DNA of 13,555 nt, taken from positions 1 to 13,555 of the forward strand of contig LLEY01000387.1 in the NCBI GenBank assembly GCA_001414485.1, written 5' to 3'. The notes under the pieces are model-generated. The model ran no database searches, had not been told where the DNA came from, and saw only the letters and a program-made list of their open reading frames with translations. Position 1 is the stretch's first letter, and the number at the start of each line of letters is the position of its first letter. The translations under genes were made by a program, and so were the position numbers. Shown here piece by piece: positions 1,380-13,555 of this stretch. The stretch comes from Calycina herbarum. Taxonomy: Eukaryota > Ascomycota > Leotiomycetes > Helotiales > Pezizellaceae.

Positions 1380-4300
1380 CTATATTATAAGCTTAAGTCG
1401 TTGTTGAAACTGAAGAACTGACAATCCTCCTGACGAATGTCCTAACGTAATAATTCCACCCCATGTAGCTTGACAAGTAGGTCTATAACCAGTAGGTAGC
1501 CAGAGAAGATTAGTAGTGCCATCTGCTAGCCAGTTCCCAGAAACGTGTAAGGTTGGGATATGCTTGCCGTCAGGGGAGAAGGCGACTGAGGTGACTGCTA
1601 TAGTATGGCCCTCGAGGGCTGGCAGTAGCTGCTGTCCCGTGGCTGCGTCCCAGCGCCGGACGGTCTTGTCGCTAGACCCAGACACGATCTGCTTGCCGTC
1701 AGGGGAGAAGGCGACTGAGGTGACCCAACTAGTATGGCCCTCGAGGGCTGGCAGTAGCTGCTGTCCCGTGGCCGCGTCCCAGCGCCGGACGGTCTTGTCG
1801 TGAGACCCAGACACGATCTGCTTGCCGTCAGGGGAGAAGGCGACTGAGGTGACCCAACCAGTATGGCCCTCGAGGGTTTGTAGCATCGCATTCCAGTATA
1901 TTTCGACTCTAGGCTTTTTCTGGATCCAAGGTGGAATACAGCTCTCGAACGCTTCTCGAACAATACTCTTCTCTGGTGCGAAAACAAGAGCTGAACAATA
2001 CGCTTGAAGAGGCGCTTGTTCAATAATTGATCGGGTAGATACAGCAAAGCGCCTAGCATCGTGTATAAACGCATGTACGTTAGGGCTTTCATTGAACTTG
2101 TTTATGTTAGCAGAGTCTTCTCTAAAGGCATCCTCAAAATCGCAATATAACTTACCTTAATCCAGTTCTCGAGCTTCATTATCATCACGATACCATCTGG
2201 CAAACTTTTCATTAAGCTAAGCCCCTCAAGCCAGAACATATAACTCCTTTTTAAAAACTGATGAACGGAGCCACCGTCTATAAGATCATTAGTAGTGTGT
2301 CCCCTATCACAGTTAAGTAGATGGTCAACCCAATAGAGACAGGAGTATTGCGCTGCTACGAGTGGATCTGGAACTGGCGGCTCGACCATTCCAATCTGGA
2401 ACCCAGGGGCGCGCAATTTGTATATGTCGCGTCGAAGCGTTTTAGACATAATCTCGAGTGATTTTGAGAACATAGTATAGATTATATCTGCCTTTCCAGA
2501 TAGAAATACTCTATCAAATGCCCTTTCGAGCAAGAAGTCCTTTGCCGACTGATGGATAAAATACGTCCGATTCTCTCGTACAGTGAGAAACGAGCCGCAT
2601 TTATTGACAACCTTCACGACTTTATCGAGATTGGTAGATATTTTCTTAGGCAGATCGGAGAGGGCCCCTACCTCGAGCAGGTGGAGTGGGCGGTACGCAA
2701 GCGTTATAGTAGAAAGGACGAGACGGCAGAACACTAGATCTCTGCGTTGCAGCTGTTCAACCTGACGTAGCATCCGATCATAGAGTGGTTCTAGCTCCGG
2801 TGGCATGTCCTGAAGCACATCGAGCACGTCCCAGCTCTCTACGGGCGCAAGCTCCTTTAAGACAAGAGCTGCCCAAAGAAATGTCCCGTTGGCCTTAGCG
2901 TATATCTGACCTCGAATTGTCTCCTGTAGCTCGCCGTCGTCCTTAATAAGTTGCAGTTTGGAAACCTTGAAATCGATAAACAACTGGACAGCGCGAGAGA
3001 CATGCTCCTTGTTGAGCTCAAGGCTAAGCCTCGTCTGCGTATAATCAAGTCTCAGCCGCGCCTCAATGTTAGGCTCGTTGCGGCTTGATACAATCCATTT
3101 CACGCGAGTGGATGTTGAGGCAGTTCGACTAATTAGATCCAAAAGCTGGTCAAGATTTGCTTTACATTCATCGAGCGCATCAATGATCAAATAGATGCTT
3201 GTCAAGCTTGGGTCTTGCAGAATGCTAGTGAAGATTTCGGATAATGCAACCCAGGCGTTTGGATCTTTAAAAAGGGCCTTGCCAGCGTGGTCGTACTTTT
3301 TCCGTACATGCGAGATGAGCAATGGTTGCTGGTCGATGAGCAGGTAGATAAGACCACGGAGCGCGGCTGACGCATTATTAATGCGGTCATCGGTAGCCTG
3401 GCAGAAGAAGTACGACAATAGTGTGGTTGCCTCTTTGTCTCTCAGCTTCGTCGAAGGGCTTAATTCATCGAGGATGCCACTAATAAGCATCGTCTTGCCT
3501 TTACCAGGGTCACCCTTGATCCAGAGTAGCCGGCTCTGTGTATCGTCGCGCCATTGCTGGAAATCGGGATGTTCGAGGATCCATTGGTAAGAGTCTCGCA
3601 GCAGCCCGCCCTTCGTGTCTTCAATCCGCTTCTTATCCTCCCAGGGATCTGTTATCCGCAGGTCTTGTATACAACTTTGGCTTTCAGGGTCGAGTAGATT
3701 CTGCTCGTCTTCTTGCTAAAAGGGTTAGCAGACAGCTAGAGAGAGAGCGATTATCAGGTGTTCACCTGTCAGTGTTTTCTGGATCTTCTTCTTCAGCCGT
3801 CTGAAGGCGTGTTCTTTCCCTTCGCCATAAATAAGCGGCAAATAAATGCCAAAGATACCTAATAGCGAGTAGGCCATGTCTTCTCCGCGTGTTGTCTGCC
3901 GATTGTCTGCCCACGATAATCGCTCCTCGACGCTAAATTGCGACAAAAGGGTACCTTCAAGTGCTGAGATTGGAATGGCCGTTATCTCCTGGATTTGTCG
4001 GTTTAGAGTTCCTTTATCCCCTAGCCGCTCGCCATTGCGAGAGAAGAACTCAACTGAGCGTGGAGCAAGGAGCTCTTGAAGGGTCCAGCCTCGTGTAAAC
4101 CATTCGCTATCCCGGAAAGCAGATTCCCAAGTACACTCGGCAGCCGTATCACTTGCTTTCCGCTTCCGTGTCGAAACATCTGACAAATAGACATAGCATC
4201 TGGCCGCTTTCTGATACCAGCGAAACATCGAGTTGATAGCCTCTGCGAGCTCAGTGCTGTTCGACTTCTCGATACAGCAGGTGTCTACCTAAAAGTATTG

Positions 4301-5774: not shown

Positions 5775-5824
5775 CGCCGTGCGGGGAGAGGGATATAATT
5801 GATTGATTGATTGATTGATTGATT
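5775..5824. repeat. ATTG microsatellite next to a short dispersed repeat
   Basis: Six ATTG units followed by ATTT run from 5798 to 5824. Directly to the left, GGAGAGGGATATAA (5785-5798) recurs exactly at 6865-6878, and similarity extends left through GCCG in both copies. A tetranucleotide tail next to a repeated segment is how SINE or LINE 3' ends often look, but no further SINE structure could be shown. Confidence 0.45.
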
Positions 5825-6744
5825 TATACACGGTTCCAGCCGTCCGTTTGTACAGCTATGCCGGAATGGCCCAGCTTTGGCACCAGTTGCCGAACTGCGT
5901 CTACCTCAGGAGACGCACCTCACTTCATCACACTCGTGTGACCAGCAACCTCCTCCACTGAGCTGTCTGGCTTCTATCTACGCATATATACACATCCGTT
6001 GACAGAAGTGCTTTGTTTGTGACTTTAGTATAAGGCTCTGACTCGGCGACCAACTGTCCTCCTATGTCTGCGGTCCTTAGATACCTGGTGGGCTACGGCC
6101 ACTGTAAAGCTATGTTGCAACTCCGCTGGCCACAGCAACCGTGATTCCACGAACCCCCTGGTCCTCACAGGGAAAAACCTTCCCAACAACGTTCTCTCTC
6201 GTCCAAATCGCCCCTTCCATACTCCCGCGACTCCAAATCCCCAAAGACCCTGACTCCCCTAAATTGTGTGATTGTGTATGCCCGGTGTGGGCCAAGTGCC
6301 TTCTGTGTGCTCTGTAAATTGATGATGTCGTTTTAATGAGGGTTTAGAAATCTGCCAGGCAGGACTGTAGTGGCAGAAAGAGGTTATGCTCTCCCAGGTC
6401 CACAGAATTGTGTGTGCTGTGTGTATGTTGTGTTGTACTGTGTATAATGTTACTGTATCTGAGATCTGGGTGGTCCAATTGAGGCTGTATTGAGGTAGGA
6501 AAACCCTGAGGAGTTGCTGCCGGCTTGCAAGAATGCTCCATTGTAGCCACCTTCCTCCTATGCGATCACCGCCCGTAATCGCTCCCCAGCACAATCCCAT
6601 CTGCCACCATGACCGGAGCCGCGCGTGAACTGTCAGGCCCTAAGGACAACCCGAGATCGAGTCGTAGTCGCTTTCGAGGTTGCCGTCGCCACTCGCAAAT
6701 CCATCATCCTACTAGCCACGTTGTTATCTTGAGCATGATGTGTT
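5825..6744. other. Intergenic, no supported gene
   Basis: Base composition is more balanced than in the flanks and short frames exist, but none shows a domain, good codon pattern or splice structure. There is a GT/TG-rich run at about 6408-6450. GCCACCATG at 6604-6611 resembles a good start context, but the frame that follows is unconvincing. Confidence 0.3.
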
Positions 6745-6862
6745 GGCAGCCGCAGGATTCGAACCTACCAGCACAAGCTGTCTTCCTCAACTCTGGCCAC
6801 GAGAAGCGTATACACAACAGGTGCTCACCAGAGAGGCAGTGCCAGCTACCTCTCCAGCCGCC
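6745..6862 (-). other. tRNA-like remnant or tRNA-derived SINE
   Basis: Read on the minus strand, GTAGG-TTCGAAT-CCTGC forms a complete T arm with a perfect B box (GGTTCGAATCC), followed by GGCTGCC (6751-6745). That can pair as a seven-base acceptor stem, with two wobbles, with GGCGGCT at 6862-6856. The enclosed 118 nt are long for a tRNA, the A box is poor and I cannot place an anticodon arm. A decayed tRNA gene or a tRNA-derived SINE is more likely than a working tRNA. Confidence 0.3.
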
Positions 6863-6878
6863 GAGGAGAGGGATATAA

Positions 6879-7168
6879 ACGCTACATGTTTTAGCTTCAG
6901 GGTTTAGTGCTTAGTGATGTGCATTAGCCTAGTCACGATATACTGTATTCAAGTCCGGGCTCGCTATATTTTACTCAGCCACTATTCTCAAGTCATGTGT
7001 GTGGCGTAGGAGCAGGCTTCTCGAACTTTCTATTGGCACGTGCCTGGCAGTACGCTGTTGCCTCCCGCTGCTTCTCACTCGCCCTCGTCACATCACTGTC
7101 ACCTTCTGCGACCTCTAGTACTAAAGCCCTTCTACGTGACGGATCTTCTCAACCTTCGAGCTACGATC
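6879..7168. other. Distal upstream region of the plus-strand HET gene
   Basis: I see no gene. A palindromic GGCACGTGCC (7035-7044) carries a CACGTG core like the site at 7171. Confidence 0.3.
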
Positions 7169-7273
7169 GTCACGTGACTTTACCCCGCTTCTGAATCACA
7201 AGGAGTGAACACGATACTTTGGCTTTGTTTCCCTTTTCTCCTTTCTTCTTCACGTTACAATCTTAGTTATATA
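7169..7273 (+). promoter_or_regulatory. Probable core promoter of the plus-strand HET gene
   Basis: GTCACGTGAC (7169-7178) is a perfect palindrome matching the bHLH (Cbf1-type) consensus. It is followed by a long pyrimidine tract (7223-7253), typical just upstream of transcription starts in filamentous fungi, and a TATA-like TTATATAC (7267-7274) about 70 nt before the ATG at 7341. The arrangement is suggestive only. Confidence 0.35.
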
Positions 7274-7340
7274 CGTAGCTAGAATAGTTGAACGTGACCA
7301 TTGTTACTTGCATTTAATTTAACACTTACGTCACATTCTA

Positions 7341-10300
7341 ATGGAGACGAAATCATCCCACTTTTCAGATAGCGGGGAGGACAATGGTGAATATAATATG
7401 GTAAGTGCTATGATCTGGAACAATATCTGTCGCTAATAATGATATTAATATAGGAGGTAAGTAGTAGCTGCGTTAATGATTAAGAGAAGAGAGTCGCTGA
7501 CCGGGGGTCTTGGTGGTGGTTTTAGGCGGTAAGTGGTAGCTGCGTTGATAATTAAGAGAAGAGAGTCGCTGATCAGGTGTCTTGGTGGTGGTTTTAGCGT
7601 GTAAGTAGTAGCTGCGTTGATGATCAAGAGAAGAGAGTCGCTGATCGGGGGTCTTGGTGGTGGTTTTAGCGTGTAAGTAGTAGCTGCGTTGATGATTAAG
7701 AGAAGAGAGTCGCTGACCGGGGGTCTTGGTGGTGGTTTTAGCTTGTAAGTATTATCTGCGTTGATAACTAAGAGAAGAGAGTCGCTGACCAGGTGTCTTG
7801 GTGGTGGTTTTAGCATGTAAGTAGCAGCTGCGTTGATAATCAAGAGAAGAGAGTCGCTGACTAGGGGTCTTGGTGGTGGTTTTAGGAGGTAAGTAGTAGC
7901 TGCGTTGATAATAAGAGAAGAGAGTCGCTGACCGGGGGTCTTGGTGGTTGTTTTAGGAGGTAAGTAGTAGCTGTGTTGATAATCAAGAGAAGGGAGTCGC
8001 TGATTAGGTGTCTTGGTAGTGGTTTTAGCGTGTAAGTAGTAGCTGCGTTGATGATCAAGAGAAGAGAGTCGCTGACCGGGGGNGTTTTAGCGTGTAAGTA
8101 GTAGCTGCGTTGTTAATGATCAAGAGAAGGGAGTCGCTGACCGGGGGTCTTGGTGGTGGTTTTAGGAGGTAAGTATTATTTGCGTTGATAATCAAGAGAA
8201 GAGAGTCGCTGATCGGGGGTCTTGGTGGTGGTTTTAGCTTGTAAGTAGTAGCTGCGTTAATAATTAAGAGAAGAGAGTTGCTGATTAGGTGTCTTGGTGG
8301 TGGTTTTAGCGTGTAAGTAGTAGCTGCGTTGATAATCAAGAGAAGAGAGTCGCTGACCGGGGGTCTTGGTGGTGGTTTTAGCAAGTAAGTATTATCTGCG
8401 TTGATAATCAAGAGAAGAGAGTCGCTGACCACGGGTCTTGGTGGTGGTTTTAGCTTGTAAGTAGTAGCTGCGTTAATAATCAAGAGAAGAGAGTTGCTGA
8501 TTAGGTGTCTTGGTGGTGGTTTTAGCGTGTAAGTAGTAGCTACGTTGATAATCAAGAGAAGAGAGTCGCTGACCGGGGGTTTTGGTGGTGGTTTTAGCTT
8601 GTAAGTAGTAGCTGCGTTGATAACTAAGAGAGGAGAGTCGCTAATCAGGTGTCTTGGTGGTGGTTTTAGCATGTAAGTAGTAGCTGCGTTGTTAATGATG
8701 AAAAGAAGGGAGTCGCTGACCGGGGGTATTGGTGGTGGTTTTAGGCGGTATGTAGTAGCTGCGTTAATAATTAAGAGAAGAGAGTCGCTGACCGGGGGTC
8801 TCGGTGGTGGTTTTAGGCGGTAAGTAGTAGCTGCGTTGATAATCAAGAGAAGAGAGTCGCTGACCGGGGGTCTTGGTCGTGGTTTTAGCTTGTAAGTAGT
8901 AGCTGCGTTAATAATTAAGAGAAGAGAGTTGCTGATCAGGTGTCTTGGTGGTGGTTTTAGCGTGTAAGTAGTAGCTACGTTGATAATCAAGAGAAGAGAG
9001 TCGCTGACCAGGGGTTTTGGTGGTGGTTTTAGCTTGTAAGTAGCAGCTACGTTGATAATCAAGAGAAGAAAGTCGCTGATCAGGTGTCTTGGTGGTGGTT
9101 TTAGAACGTAAGTAGCAGCTATATTAATAATTAAGAGAAGAGACTCGCTTATATTATATCTTAGAGAGTACGTATTATTGTATTTACTTAATAACATTAC
9201 TAACTAGTATTTTTTCTATTACTTTTCTAGTTAGTAAGCTGGCTTATATACTCTTCTGTTGTATATAATACTAATTTAGATCGACAAATCTAGTATGCTA
9301 AGGACAAGTGGACTTACCCGCCATTCAATGCATTTTCGAAATCTCTCGAAGTAGAAACTGGGTTAAATTCTCTATTTACTTATAAACCTTCTTCGGAGTT
9401 ATGCATTCCCTGTCGTAATATCGACCTAAATGCCTATCTCTCTTCGTTACATGATCTAGAAAAGGGTTGTGATCTATGTCAAATCCTTTCTAAAATCCCC
9501 GAGGAAGCTAGGAACAAGGAGCCTAAGAGACGACTTCTTGAAGCTCAGCAATACGTAAGAATTTGTGCTGTGCCGGGTATGTGAAACTGTACCGCTTTTG
9601 TTGTGCTACAATAGACAGCTGATGCTATTTAGATCCCCAACCTAGAAGCTCGCAGCCAATCCGACACGGACTTCCAGGATTTCTGCAATCGGGTAGCCAG
9701 CTCTATTTCGACCTAATCAAGGAATGGATTCGATTTTGTGATATGGGCAACTGCTCGAAAGGCTATAGCTGCTGTCCTAAGCTCGATGGAGCTAGAATGC
9801 CAACCCGCGTTATTGATGTGGGAGATGGCTCCACCGTTGAACTTAAGTTGAGAGACAACATTGGTCAAGGAGCACACTACGTTGCTCTATCTCATTGCTG
9901 GGGCAAGCCACCAGAAAAACAGGAGGAAACAACAAAAGAACAGAAGAACTGGAACTGGAACCGGGAACCTACTACTACCAACAAGGAGGAGAACTGGAAC
10001 GGGCAAACTACTACTAGCAACAAGGAGAAGAGAGCTCAAGGATTTCTGGTTACAGAATTGCCGCAGACATTTCAAGATGCAATCACAGTCACTCGAAAAC
10101 TTAACCAGCGATACCTCTGGATCGATTCGCTTTGTATTATTCAGGATGACCCAGGAGACTGGACTATCGAATCTGAGAAGATGGAAGCGGTATTTAAGAA
10201 CGCCTACTGTACAATTGCTGCCACCTCCGCTAAAGACTCAACTCAAGGATTTCTTAAACGGCCGCAAGAGGAAGATTCACAATATGTGATGGTGTCCGAG

Positions 10301-11374
10301 TCCTCACATGGCAAAGTCTACATTTGTACATCAATCGATGATTATGATCGCGACGTACTAGAGGGAATCTTGAATACGCGAGCTTGGGTGTTACAGGAAC
10401 GAGCCTTGTCACGCCGAACAATCCATTTCACGCGGAGGCAAACGTACTGGGAGTGTGGCGGTGGGGTGCGGTGCGGTGCGAAACGCTGACTCATATGAAG
10501 AAGTAAGTCCCGATCTAGGGCTCAGTTTTAAAGACGCTTTCGTCTTTCTAGATCGCTTTTCTTTATTCATTACCGAGCACTTACAACATTACTAATTTCT
10601 ACTAAAACTAGTGAGAAATTGTCTTTTCGAAGTGATCCAGAATTTCCTCGTTCTATTACTTATCGTACTCGGTCAGCTCGAATCATGCTTATTCAATCTC
10701 TCTTTGCGGATTACTCGACACTCCACCTCACATACGAGACAGACAGGCCCGTAGCAATCGAGTCACTAGCTAAGGCGTTGGCCAAAGCCCTCAAGACCGA
10801 GGTCAGTGATGGGATCTTTGAGTTCTTCCTGCACCGAAGTCTTCTGTGGCAACCGGCACAGAATACCCTGACGCAGATAGATTATGATAAGAAGGTGCCT
10901 CCATCTAAGGCGCCTCAATCGTGGTCTTGGATGGCGTATCACGGGAAGATCCAGTATTTGCCAATCGAATATGAAGACGTTGAATGGGATTGTAGTGTTC
11001 AACTTGTGGACACCGTCCGATTTGCGAAGGCCTTGCCATCTGGGATTCCGAGCAATTATGTCTTAAAGGCTCGAGTAAGACGGCTTCGAGATTGCAAGAT
11101 TAAACCTGAGGGCGTTATACTCGACAAGGAGAACAACGAAGTTGGGCAGCTGTGGTTTGATACCCAACCTGACAGCGTACTATCCGAAGTACGGTGTGCT
11201 ATAATGGGAAGAAAGCGTATAGCAGAGGATGGGAACCGGAAATATTATGTGCTGTTTGTTAAATGCGCGACGGCGCCTTCGCAGCGCGAATGTTTTAAGA
11301 GGGTTGGAATGGGTTTGATCCAGAAGCGTTTTATACTGTTTGACGGTCCAGATGATAAGGCACGAATCCTCTAA
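7341..11374 (+). CDS. HET-domain protein with a 5' micro-exon/intron array; carries a 5-nt frameshift
   Basis: Proposed exons: 7341-7400 (20 residues, METKSSHF...), 26 single-codon micro-exons between 7454 and 9233, 9294-9576, 9633-10502 and 10612-11374. With the frameshift ignored this gives 682 residues, or 656 if all micro-exons are skipped. Exon 9294-9576 has LCIPCRNIDL and GCDLCQIL, the Cys-rich N-terminal region common in HET proteins, and no in-frame ATG, so an upstream start exon is required. The HET domain shows YVALSHCWG (9878-9904), LPQTFQDA, YLWIDSLCIIQ (10112-10144), YCTIAATSA and AWVLQERALSRRTIHF. The C-terminal half lacks other domains. Introns 9577-9632 (GTATGT) and 10503-10611 (GTAAGT, TACTAAT) fit. 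A GGTGC triplication at 10465-10479 shifts the frame to TGA at 10487. HET proteins trigger incompatibility cell death. The HET call is firm; the 5' model is inferred. Confidence 0.75.
7401..9293 (+). other. Chain of 27 intron-like segments separated by 26 three-base micro-exons
   Basis: Intron 1 (7401-7453: GTAAGT, CGCTAAT, ATATAG) is unique sequence. Introns 2-24 are the 72-bp array units without their last three bases: 69 nt in most, 68 in intron 8, 72 in introns 11 and 19. Intron 25 (9108-9164) is a half-decayed unit. Introns 26 (9168-9230: GTACGT, TACTAAC, pyrimidine tract, TTCTAG) and 27 (9234-9293: GTAAGC, ACTAAT, TCTAG) are unique. Donors are GTAAGT 24 times, and GTATGT, GTACGT and GTAAGC once each. 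All introns are phase 0. Triplets: CGT 7, CTT 6, GAG 4, GCG 3, CAT 2, and CAA, AAC, AGA, TTA once each. None is a stop. Splice signals are seen directly; use is inferred. The alternative is one 1893-nt intron. Confidence 0.6.
7457..9167. repeat. 72-bp tandem array (about 24 units)
   Basis: The unit on the + strand begins GTAAGTAGTAGCTGCG and ends GGTGGTTTTAG plus three variable bases. The branch-like CTRAY lies at unit positions 41-45, with its A 25 nt before the acceptor. All 23 regular units keep CTRAY and TTTTAG, and all but one keep GTAAGT. Other differences include GTAGTAGCT/GTATTATCT, ACCGGGGGT/ATCAGGTGT and TTGATAATC/TTAATAATT. Indels: -1 in 7889-7956, +3 in 8094-8165 and 8673-8744. 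The last unit decays from about 9120. A single N at 8083 stands for about 11 expected bases, so the copy number is uncertain. Confidence 0.95.
9953..10030 (+). repeat. In-frame 39-bp duplication inside the HET domain
   Basis: Two adjacent 39-nt units encode NWNREPTTTNKEE and NWNGQTTTSNKEK. They lie in a hydrophilic low-complexity insert between the SHCWG motif and the LPQTFQDA motif of the HET domain, a loop of variable length in this family. Confidence 0.8.
10465..10479 (+). repeat. GGTGC x3, probable frameshifting microsatellite
   Basis: Three exact GGTGC copies follow TYWECGG. With three copies the frame reads VRCGAKR and stops at TGA 10487-10489. With two copies it would read VRCETLTHMKK and run straight into the GTAAGT donor at 10503, joining the downstream exon in frame. 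The family pattern after the WECG motif supports the two-copy frame. Confidence 0.75.
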
Positions 11375-12434: not shown

Positions 12435-13555
12435 TTACATCGCTCTTTGCAGACGCTCAATCCCCTCTTTCGCAAGGGTGTACACTTCTTCCTCGGATCC
12501 AGTGCTGTCGATCTACAGAGAGTTAGCTGATGTAACATCAAAGCATCACTTTGACCGACCTTCTCGAATGGCCCTTTTTCTTGGAGGTGTCTTCGTAGGG
12601 ACTTCTCGTTACTGTATGACCGCAACCTCTTTTCAATGACAGCTTTTTTGTCATCTGATCTCGATGATGATGTCGCCCTTTTCTCAAGGCGAGCCCTGAG
12701 TATTCCCTCGAACACGTCCTCCGGCACGCTCTCTGGGCAATCCAGGGAGAGAGTTGAATAGCGTCGAGAGACCTTAAAAGTGTCAGCAGAAAGTCATCAT
12801 TAAAGATGGCGAAGATTACCCGTTGCTCAAATGTTACAAGCTGATCAAAACTTCTCGGAAATCCATTCACAAGCCACTTGGGACCCTTTGCTACCGCAAT
12901 CAGAAGACTGATCATCAGTTCCGCGGGAACAGTGAACCCTATGTCTATGCTTTTTTGGATAAAATTAGAGTACCGAGAACCACGTCGTTCAATCTCTTTG
13001 CGAAGTAATTCACCGGTAGGAATGTGACAGAAGTTGAGCGCCTCTGCAAGCTTGGCACACTGGGTATCTTTGCCTACGCCAGGACCGCCTAGTAAAGTTA
13101 GCATAGAAGAAAGAATGAACTTTAATGACAAGTACCAATTACGAATATGATCGTCATTTGCAACTGTTTCTCCCGCAATGAGTTTTCTTCCTTTGAGAGA
13201 AGATTGGTTAAATCTTGGAAGTAAACTGCTTTGGGTGGGGACTCCAAAAATTCAAGAAGTTTCTCAAACTGTGGATATCTCAAGATATATATAACTGCTT
13301 GGATTCGACATTCGAGGCTATCTGCTTCGTGGGTTATCCGAGCTGCATCGGAGTCGCGAGCCTCAAATTCTGTAAAGTACGGCTGCATCATATTTGTTTG
13401 AGATACGTATACGAGGTATCTCTGTCCGAACTGCTCATGACGATATTTGTCCGCTAACAATGATATCAGCAACGAGCATATCTTCGCGAGTAGAGTTTTA
13501 CCTTTTTCTATGCCTTCTGAAGGGATAACATCACCGATCACAATCTCACCGAGAT
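12435..13555 (-). CDS. Adenylate/UMP-CMP kinase-family protein with unknown N-terminal region (5' partial)
   Basis: Exons: 13555-13136 (continuing off-window), 13088-12820, 12772-12560 and 12512-12435 (TAA), 325 visible residues. The last ~190 are a full-length short-LID nucleoside monophosphate kinase, which moves phosphate from ATP to AMP or UMP/CMP. Visible motifs: P-loop GGPGVGKDTQ, HIPTGELLR, NGFPRS, LDCPESVPEDV, SRSDDKK (short LID) and C-terminal IDSTGSEEEVY. Which nucleotide it prefers cannot be told. The ~139 residues before it (IGDVIPSEGIEKGKTLLAKI..., YLVYVSQTN) match no domain I recognise; GIEKGKT is one residue short of a P-loop spacing. The three introns are each exactly 47 nt with CTAAC or CTGAC branch motifs. 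Donors GTACTT, GTAATC and GTCGGT are weak, and the last is unusual. The kinase identification is confident. The role of the fusion is unknown. Confidence 0.8.

Follow-up and report, generated by a model that had tools for sequence, protein, structure and literature searches.

The window, that is the whole stretch of 13,555 nucleotides analysed here (positions 1-13555 of contig C312, within a 68.8-Mb assembly of 379 contigs), carries on its plus strand a HET-domain gene that is preceded by a tandem array of short intron-like segments. When the genome was queried with the DNA of the array, it was found at two further loci only, referred to as C1 (L008, minus strand) and C127 (L009). The features of the gene, with some of their counterparts in these copies, are as follows.

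7341-7400, plus strand: exon 1, METKSSHFSDSGEDNGEYNM, 60 bases from an ATG start, its phase-0 end followed by a GTAAGT donor
7401-7453, plus strand: intron 1 (53 nt), distinct from the repeated unit (counterparts of 53 nt in C1 and 50 nt in C127)
7454-9107, plus strand: array of 24 triplets and the 23 introns between them, mostly 69 nt
8083-8083, plus strand: N (assembly gap) within a unit
9108-9164, plus strand: intron of 57 nt, unit-like in its first part and divergent in its second, no CTRAY match
9165-9167, plus strand: triplet AGA, identical in C1 and C127
9168-9230, plus strand: intron of 63 nt, distinct from the unit, branch motif CTAAC
9231-9233, plus strand: triplet TTA (ATT in C1, TTA in C127)
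9234-9293, plus strand: last intron, 60 nt, not a copy of the unit
9294-9576, plus strand: HET exon 2, YAKDKWTYPPF..., no in-frame ATG
9633-10502, plus strand: HET exon 3 with the whole HET domain (PF06985, E 1.5e-32, profile 1-146 of 146)
10612-11374, plus strand: HET exon 4, predicted by comparison with C1, its frame no longer matching that of exon 3

HET was the only Pfam family in exons 2 and 3; a NACHT domain also present in the window belongs to another gene, on the minus strand. This NLR-like gene (1380-4228) combines WD40 repeats (129-bp units, 95% matches) with a NACHT/NPHP3_N domain, its NACHT part at 3044-3532 being the best NACHT match of the genome, and an ORF upstream (3725-4228) resembles a HET C-terminal part when judged by eye, with no Pfam match. 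A search for the same gene beside C1 gave no match in L073 (both strands) or L008 (one strand). The approximately 200 bp directly upstream of the start codon (7135-7335), with TTCTA on either side, are absent in C1 and had no further match in the genome; about 1 kb at 5799-6861 is also missing from C1, and C1 in turn contains roughly 1.3 kb not shared with the window close to this place. An adenylate kinase-like ORF (PF00406, E 1.2e-18) was detected at 12538-13131 on the minus strand.

Read directly, the DNA that separates exon 1 from the HET exon (starting at 9294) consists of 27 intron-like segments with 26 triplets between them, and the gap between neighbouring segments is exactly 3 bases at 26/26 places, always in phase 0. 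Units with donor, branch motif and acceptor, exactly three bases apart and all in phase, had been noticed in a preliminary description of the locus, and the 78 inserted bases which it expected at full use are indeed obtained from the 26 triplets. The segments all end in TAG (27/27); their donor is GTAAGT in 24/27 and GTATGT, GTACGT or GTAAGC in the remainder, and CTRAY is present 15-27 nt upstream of the acceptor in 26/27. The exception is the intron at 9108-9164, whose counterparts in C1 and C127 do contain CTRAY. A unit length of 72 bp was found for 19 of the 23 spacings within the array, the others being 71 bp (from 7886), 75 bp (from 8091), 75 bp (from 8670) and 62 bp (from 8029); the last is due to the N at 8083 inside the unit starting at 8029, which also makes the unit count of the window approximate. 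The indels among complete units (71, 75 and 75 bp) were all intronic, and the triplet length was unchanged everywhere. TRF reported a period of 72 with 23.7 copies plus a higher-order period of 216 bp. The first 12 triplets of the array at 7454-9107 read GAG GCG CGT CGT CTT CAT GAG GAG CGT CGT GAG CTT and the last 12 CGT CAA CTT CGT CTT CAT GCG GCG CTT CGT CTT AAC; neither the 26 triplets of the window nor the 10 of C1 include a stop codon. If every triplet is used, the predicted product of the window starts with METKSSHFSDSGEDNGEYNM-EARRLHEERRELRQLRLHAALRLNRL-YAKDKW..., the HET exon itself lacking a start codon of its own, as had been noted before.

Such a chain is far from chance expectation. 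The longest AG-NNN-GT chain in the window has 26 members; 1000 first-order resamples of the same DNA yielded no chain above 4, and with other gap lengths (0-2 and 4-29) chains in the window did not exceed 3. As the 3-base rule is also kept between the non-repeat and half-alike introns at the ends, a minisatellite alone is insufficient as an explanation. We also searched a sample of 72 loci (263 kb) consisting of 30 HET loci (of at least 150 HET matches) and 30 NACHT loci (of 57 matches) of this genome, with short flanks, and, in overlapping records, the three array loci. Here AG-3-GT chains of three or more were restricted to the three array loci, gap lengths of 0-2 and 4-11 gave no chains of this size, and a gap length of 12 gave a single place in C127, covered by three overlapping records. 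From these sequence features, the 26 triplets are probably single-codon exons that would be joined by the splicing of short introns into a fast-changing N-terminal stretch of the HET-domain protein.

Comparison of the units revealed a strong difference between triplets and introns. Per-site diversity was 0.58 for triplets and 0.09 for introns in the window, 0.70 and 0.05 in C1 and 0.74 and 0.11 in C127, calculated on full units (22/24 in the window, where the N unit and a 60-bp unit were dropped, 7/8 in C1 and 11/12 in C127); between the window and C1 the values were 0.73 and 0.10. Of 70 three-column windows, the triplet was the most diverse one within the window, within C1 and in the comparison of the two. 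On the intron tree of 29 window and C1 units, the three triplet sites required 10, 14 and 11 parsimony changes compared to a mean of about 0.93, although one intron column reached 9 changes. Pairwise differences in the window comprised 67 transitions and 334 transversions for triplets, against 1073 transitions and 351 transversions for introns. In the end block at 9105-9293, 3/9 triplet bases but 8/180 intron bases differ between the window and C1 (p 0.01). When introns were at most one site apart, the triplet differed in 2/5 unit pairs of the window and in 3/3 of C1, and four of these five differing pairs differ at all three bases, a hint of whole-codon replacement; the same triplet in the remaining 3/5 pairs of the window counts against single-codon exons under diversification. 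All these unit, triplet and pair counts are not independent, since the units are duplicates of one another. No significant protection was seen for the donor TpG sites of the window (0/14, against 29/163 other TpG sites, p 0.13). The predicted spliced peptide showed no excess of helical amphipathicity (1732/5000 shuffles as high), and its best 18-residue stretch was matched by 3779/5000 shuffles.

Alternatively, 7401-9293 might be removed as a whole, either as one long intron or with the inner signals serving only as recursive splice sites, and the triplets would then be absent from the mRNA. Exons of 3 nt are known to be difficult to define, and the loss of triplets that are all in phase would go unnoticed. 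Nevertheless, removal of the whole stretch gives no reason why diversity is 6 to 13 times higher in triplets than at intron sites or why the exact 3-base spacing is kept even between non-repeat introns, and 26 acceptors with intact AG would have to be skipped, which makes it distinctly unlikely.

The array recurs in the two paralogous copies, in line with the in-phase array and tandem duplication suggested previously. The array of C1 comprises 10 triplets (GAG ATG CGG ATG GAC GAC ATT GAC AGA ATT) and 11 introns, with the 3-base spacing at 10/10 places as judged from its sequence, and GT and AG are intact at every junction in both the window and C1. Behind its array, the HET gene of C1 is open from exon 2 to the stop once joined at the predicted sites; the counterpart of exon 1 is MATKSSYFSDSGEDNGEYNI, and with every triplet used the predicted product begins with MATKSSYFSDSGEDNGEYNI-EMRMDDIDRI-YAEDKW.... 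C127 has 14 triplets, one of them TAA, and ATA at the position of the start codon of the other copies. In five of its 11 full units the donor GT has become AT, so that GT donors are found in 6/11 units compared to 29/29 in the window and C1 (p 0.0007, units not being independent), and its HET copy, which lies some 6 kb farther along, contains stops. Judged by these changes, the C127 copy is clearly decayed. The differing triplet numbers (26 in the window, 10 in C1 and 14 in C127) and the 216-bp period in the window indicate that array length changes by duplication of units. Between copies, the end triplets can be aligned and the inner ones cannot, and at some columns, for example 28 and 31, the window and C1 arrays have a different prevailing intron base; both observations fit a homogenization within each array.

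Compared to C1, exon 3 of the window contains an extra copy of a 5-base repeat at 10465-10479, leading to a frameshift and a TGA at 10487-10489, beyond the HET domain. The HET copy of the window is therefore without an intact reading frame and may be non-functional. It might thus be a decaying pseudogene whose array is now a neutral minisatellite, a possibility which would be compatible with single-codon exons in C1. The assembly gap within the array and the plain decay of C127 point in the same direction as the broken frame, but every GT and AG of the window array is intact, none of its triplets is a stop, its HET domain is complete and C1 with the same layout is open; we consider a pseudogene rather unlikely, albeit still to be reckoned with. 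Exon 3 also contains a 39-bp repeat at 9952-10031 (2.1 copies of 13 codons each) that differs from C1, and in its part at 9635-9934 the values between the window and C1 (dN 0.14, dS 0.11) exceed those of exon 2 (dN 0.02, dS 0.06) and exon 4; exon 4 of C1 has 30 bp extra compared to the window.

A 380-aa ORF on the opposite strand (8055-9197, minus) raises the question whether the array is instead a minus-strand gene for a protein of 24-residue repeats (LLLIINAATTYxLKPPPRPPVSDS) with one hypervariable residue per repeat. This frame is stop-free in all 40 aligned units, though shifted by the 71-bp unit, and in C127 variation is highest at its wobble positions (0.147 vs 0.096 and 0.078). No wobble excess exists in the window (0.106 at wobble positions vs 0.107 and 0.060), and in C1 wobble positions are the lowest (0.025 vs 0.079 and 0.054). 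The frame is open in the decayed C127 copy as well, a query with 8098-9197 gave no match at E<=0.001 among 7994 scored candidates, a Pfam match stayed below the cut-off (21.2 bits vs 27), and the end introns and exon 1 are left unexplained. The minus-strand gene was rejected because of the wobble pattern of the window and C1 (with C127 opposite), the lack of homologs in this search and the frame-shifting unit, and appears barely credible.

Introner-like elements are known as many near-identical introns dispersed over a genome. A mobile intron of this kind that had invaded an ordinary coding sequence at almost all codon boundaries, the codons being the old sequence, would produce introns that are alike and triplets that are near random, both as observed, and a multiplication of introns by such elements had been considered in the preliminary description. 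This was not borne out: the genome contains at least 43 unit matches, all at C312, C1 and C127, that is at three loci of one gene family, and no dispersed element was seen. Furthermore, triplet number and inner triplets differ between the paralogs while end triplets align, and the 216-bp period reflects tandem duplication. Introner spread was consequently rejected on the confinement of its matches and is very improbable.

If the triplets are single-codon exons, the short introns would be recognized as introns and spliced unit by unit, and exon 1 would grow by one codon per step. Introns may be homogenized by unequal exchange, and codons may be kept diverse by selection, as for the hypervariable positions in fungal NLR repeats. 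Since the introns are all in phase 0, the HET frame is preserved when any run of units is skipped, at the cost of only those codons, and variable splicing could be tolerated or even exploited, giving N-termini with different codon subsets. HET genes have roles in allorecognition and cell death (PMC10197012), and an N-terminus that changes rapidly would be appropriate for a recognition part; by analogy with the HET family, the triplet-encoded stretch might serve self/non-self recognition. Tentatively, and with reservations, we propose that the N-terminus could be assembled codon by codon and that duplication, codon replacement and in-frame skipping could give each gene copy, and possibly each mRNA, its own peptide barcode. 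Such a self/non-self gene would hold its introns identical and exchange each 3-base exon as a whole codon.

Related principles are known from other systems. The HNWD genes, NLRs with high-identity WD40 repeats (het-e, het-d and het-r in Podospora), also have near-identical repeats with variable positions and undergo unequal exchange; there, the repeat itself is protein-coding, whereas here 3 of the 72 bases per unit are predicted to be coding. Micro-exon genes of Schistosoma are chains of short in-phase exons that permit variable proteins, but these exons are usually longer than one codon, the introns are not tandem copies, and organisms and proteins are different.

The closest likeness is found in a truffle, Tuber melanosporum. 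The preliminary description knew of no described case of single-codon exon arrays, but three papers (PMC3689799, PMC4986451, PMC10197012) report that NACHT-ANK or NLR-type genes of T. melanosporum are diversified through alternatively spliced microexons of codon size (3 bp), in PMC3689799 with 'tens of' codon-sized exons, a statement credited there and in PMC4986451 to Iotti et al. 2012. Codon-sized microexons as a kind are thus already known. According to its abstract, a 2024 paper on a Trichoderma microexon regards functional microexons as previously undescribed in filamentous fungi (PMC11121469), and its reference list includes Iotti et al. As described for the Tuber genes, the putative exons found here are multiple and codon-sized and belong to a fungal gene family associated with the recognition of non-self, with many 3-nt exons predicted between canonical short introns (26/26 places in the window and 10/10 in C1). 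The Tuber genes are NACHT-ANK receptors with reported alternative splicing, in contrast to a HET gene with an N-terminal array and predicted splicing. Moreover, near-identical tandem 72-bp units and a measured contrast of introns and codons are found here. Our literature search, in which most subscription papers were outside the scope, found no microexon array in a HET gene. New would therefore be the HET family, the N-terminal place, the near-identical tandem array and the constant introns next to nearly saturated codons, as far as sequence comparison can tell. The hypervariable triplets, the paralogs, the broken HET frame and the open minus-strand frame likewise go beyond the preliminary description. 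If the codons are spliced in, this would be a second fungal gene family with codon-sized exon arrays beside Tuber NACHT-ANK, the only other one found in our literature search. Its near-identical tandem form makes the handling of 3-nt exon chains by the spliceosome testable, and lets one ask whether recognition genes confine diversification to single codons amid uniform DNA.

We were also interested in the N-termini of related proteins. In a search for HET proteins with 7995 scored candidates, the closest one among the best 120 of 4625 matches was from Cudoniella (66% identity over 95% of the query), and other close ones among the matches listed were from Rhexocercosporidium, Leptodontidium and Cadophora, then from Fusarium, Dactylonectria and Diaporthe among others; judged by these neighbours, the source is probably a leotiomycete. 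Nine homologs were compared to exon 1. N-termini similar to it were detected in P0001 (Cudoniella), P0003 (Leptodontidium) and P0005 (F. oxysporum), each with 0/1000 shuffles as high, and weaker similarity in P0007 (4/1000) and P0017 (15/1000); P0002, P0013, P0016 and P0018 were no better than chance. Together with the counterpart in C1, these three clear and two weaker cases agree with the proposed exon 1 at 7341-7400. In P0003 the exon 1-like part is followed by VSSSNIENRKKRVADR (residues 22-37), which matches the plus-strand translation of a unit from the donor on (69%, best tblastn E 7e-5 in a 2.1-kb database). From this match, which includes the donor, the gene model of P0003 seems to contain the read-through of a similar unit, and a relative likely carries the same unit; a search with residues 1-62 of P0003 returned P0003 itself as the only match. 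Strings such as DIDALNADIDDQIQL in P0017 were considered as joined micro-exons, an idea that was dropped because this part of P0017 lines up with a read-through of the last intron at its 3' end. The N-termini of P0017 (F. solani) and P0018 (Diaporthe) show repeated strings such as ICLLTLVVFGDI, possibly a read-through of repeated introns of another sequence. Five of 29 homolog sequences examined (P0008, P0010, P0011, P0012 and P0022) are annotated from MPTRVIDVG, well inside the gene, and their 5' exons may have been missed through similar arrays. Arrays of this kind may thus explain late starts or odd N-termini of predicted HET proteins in relatives.
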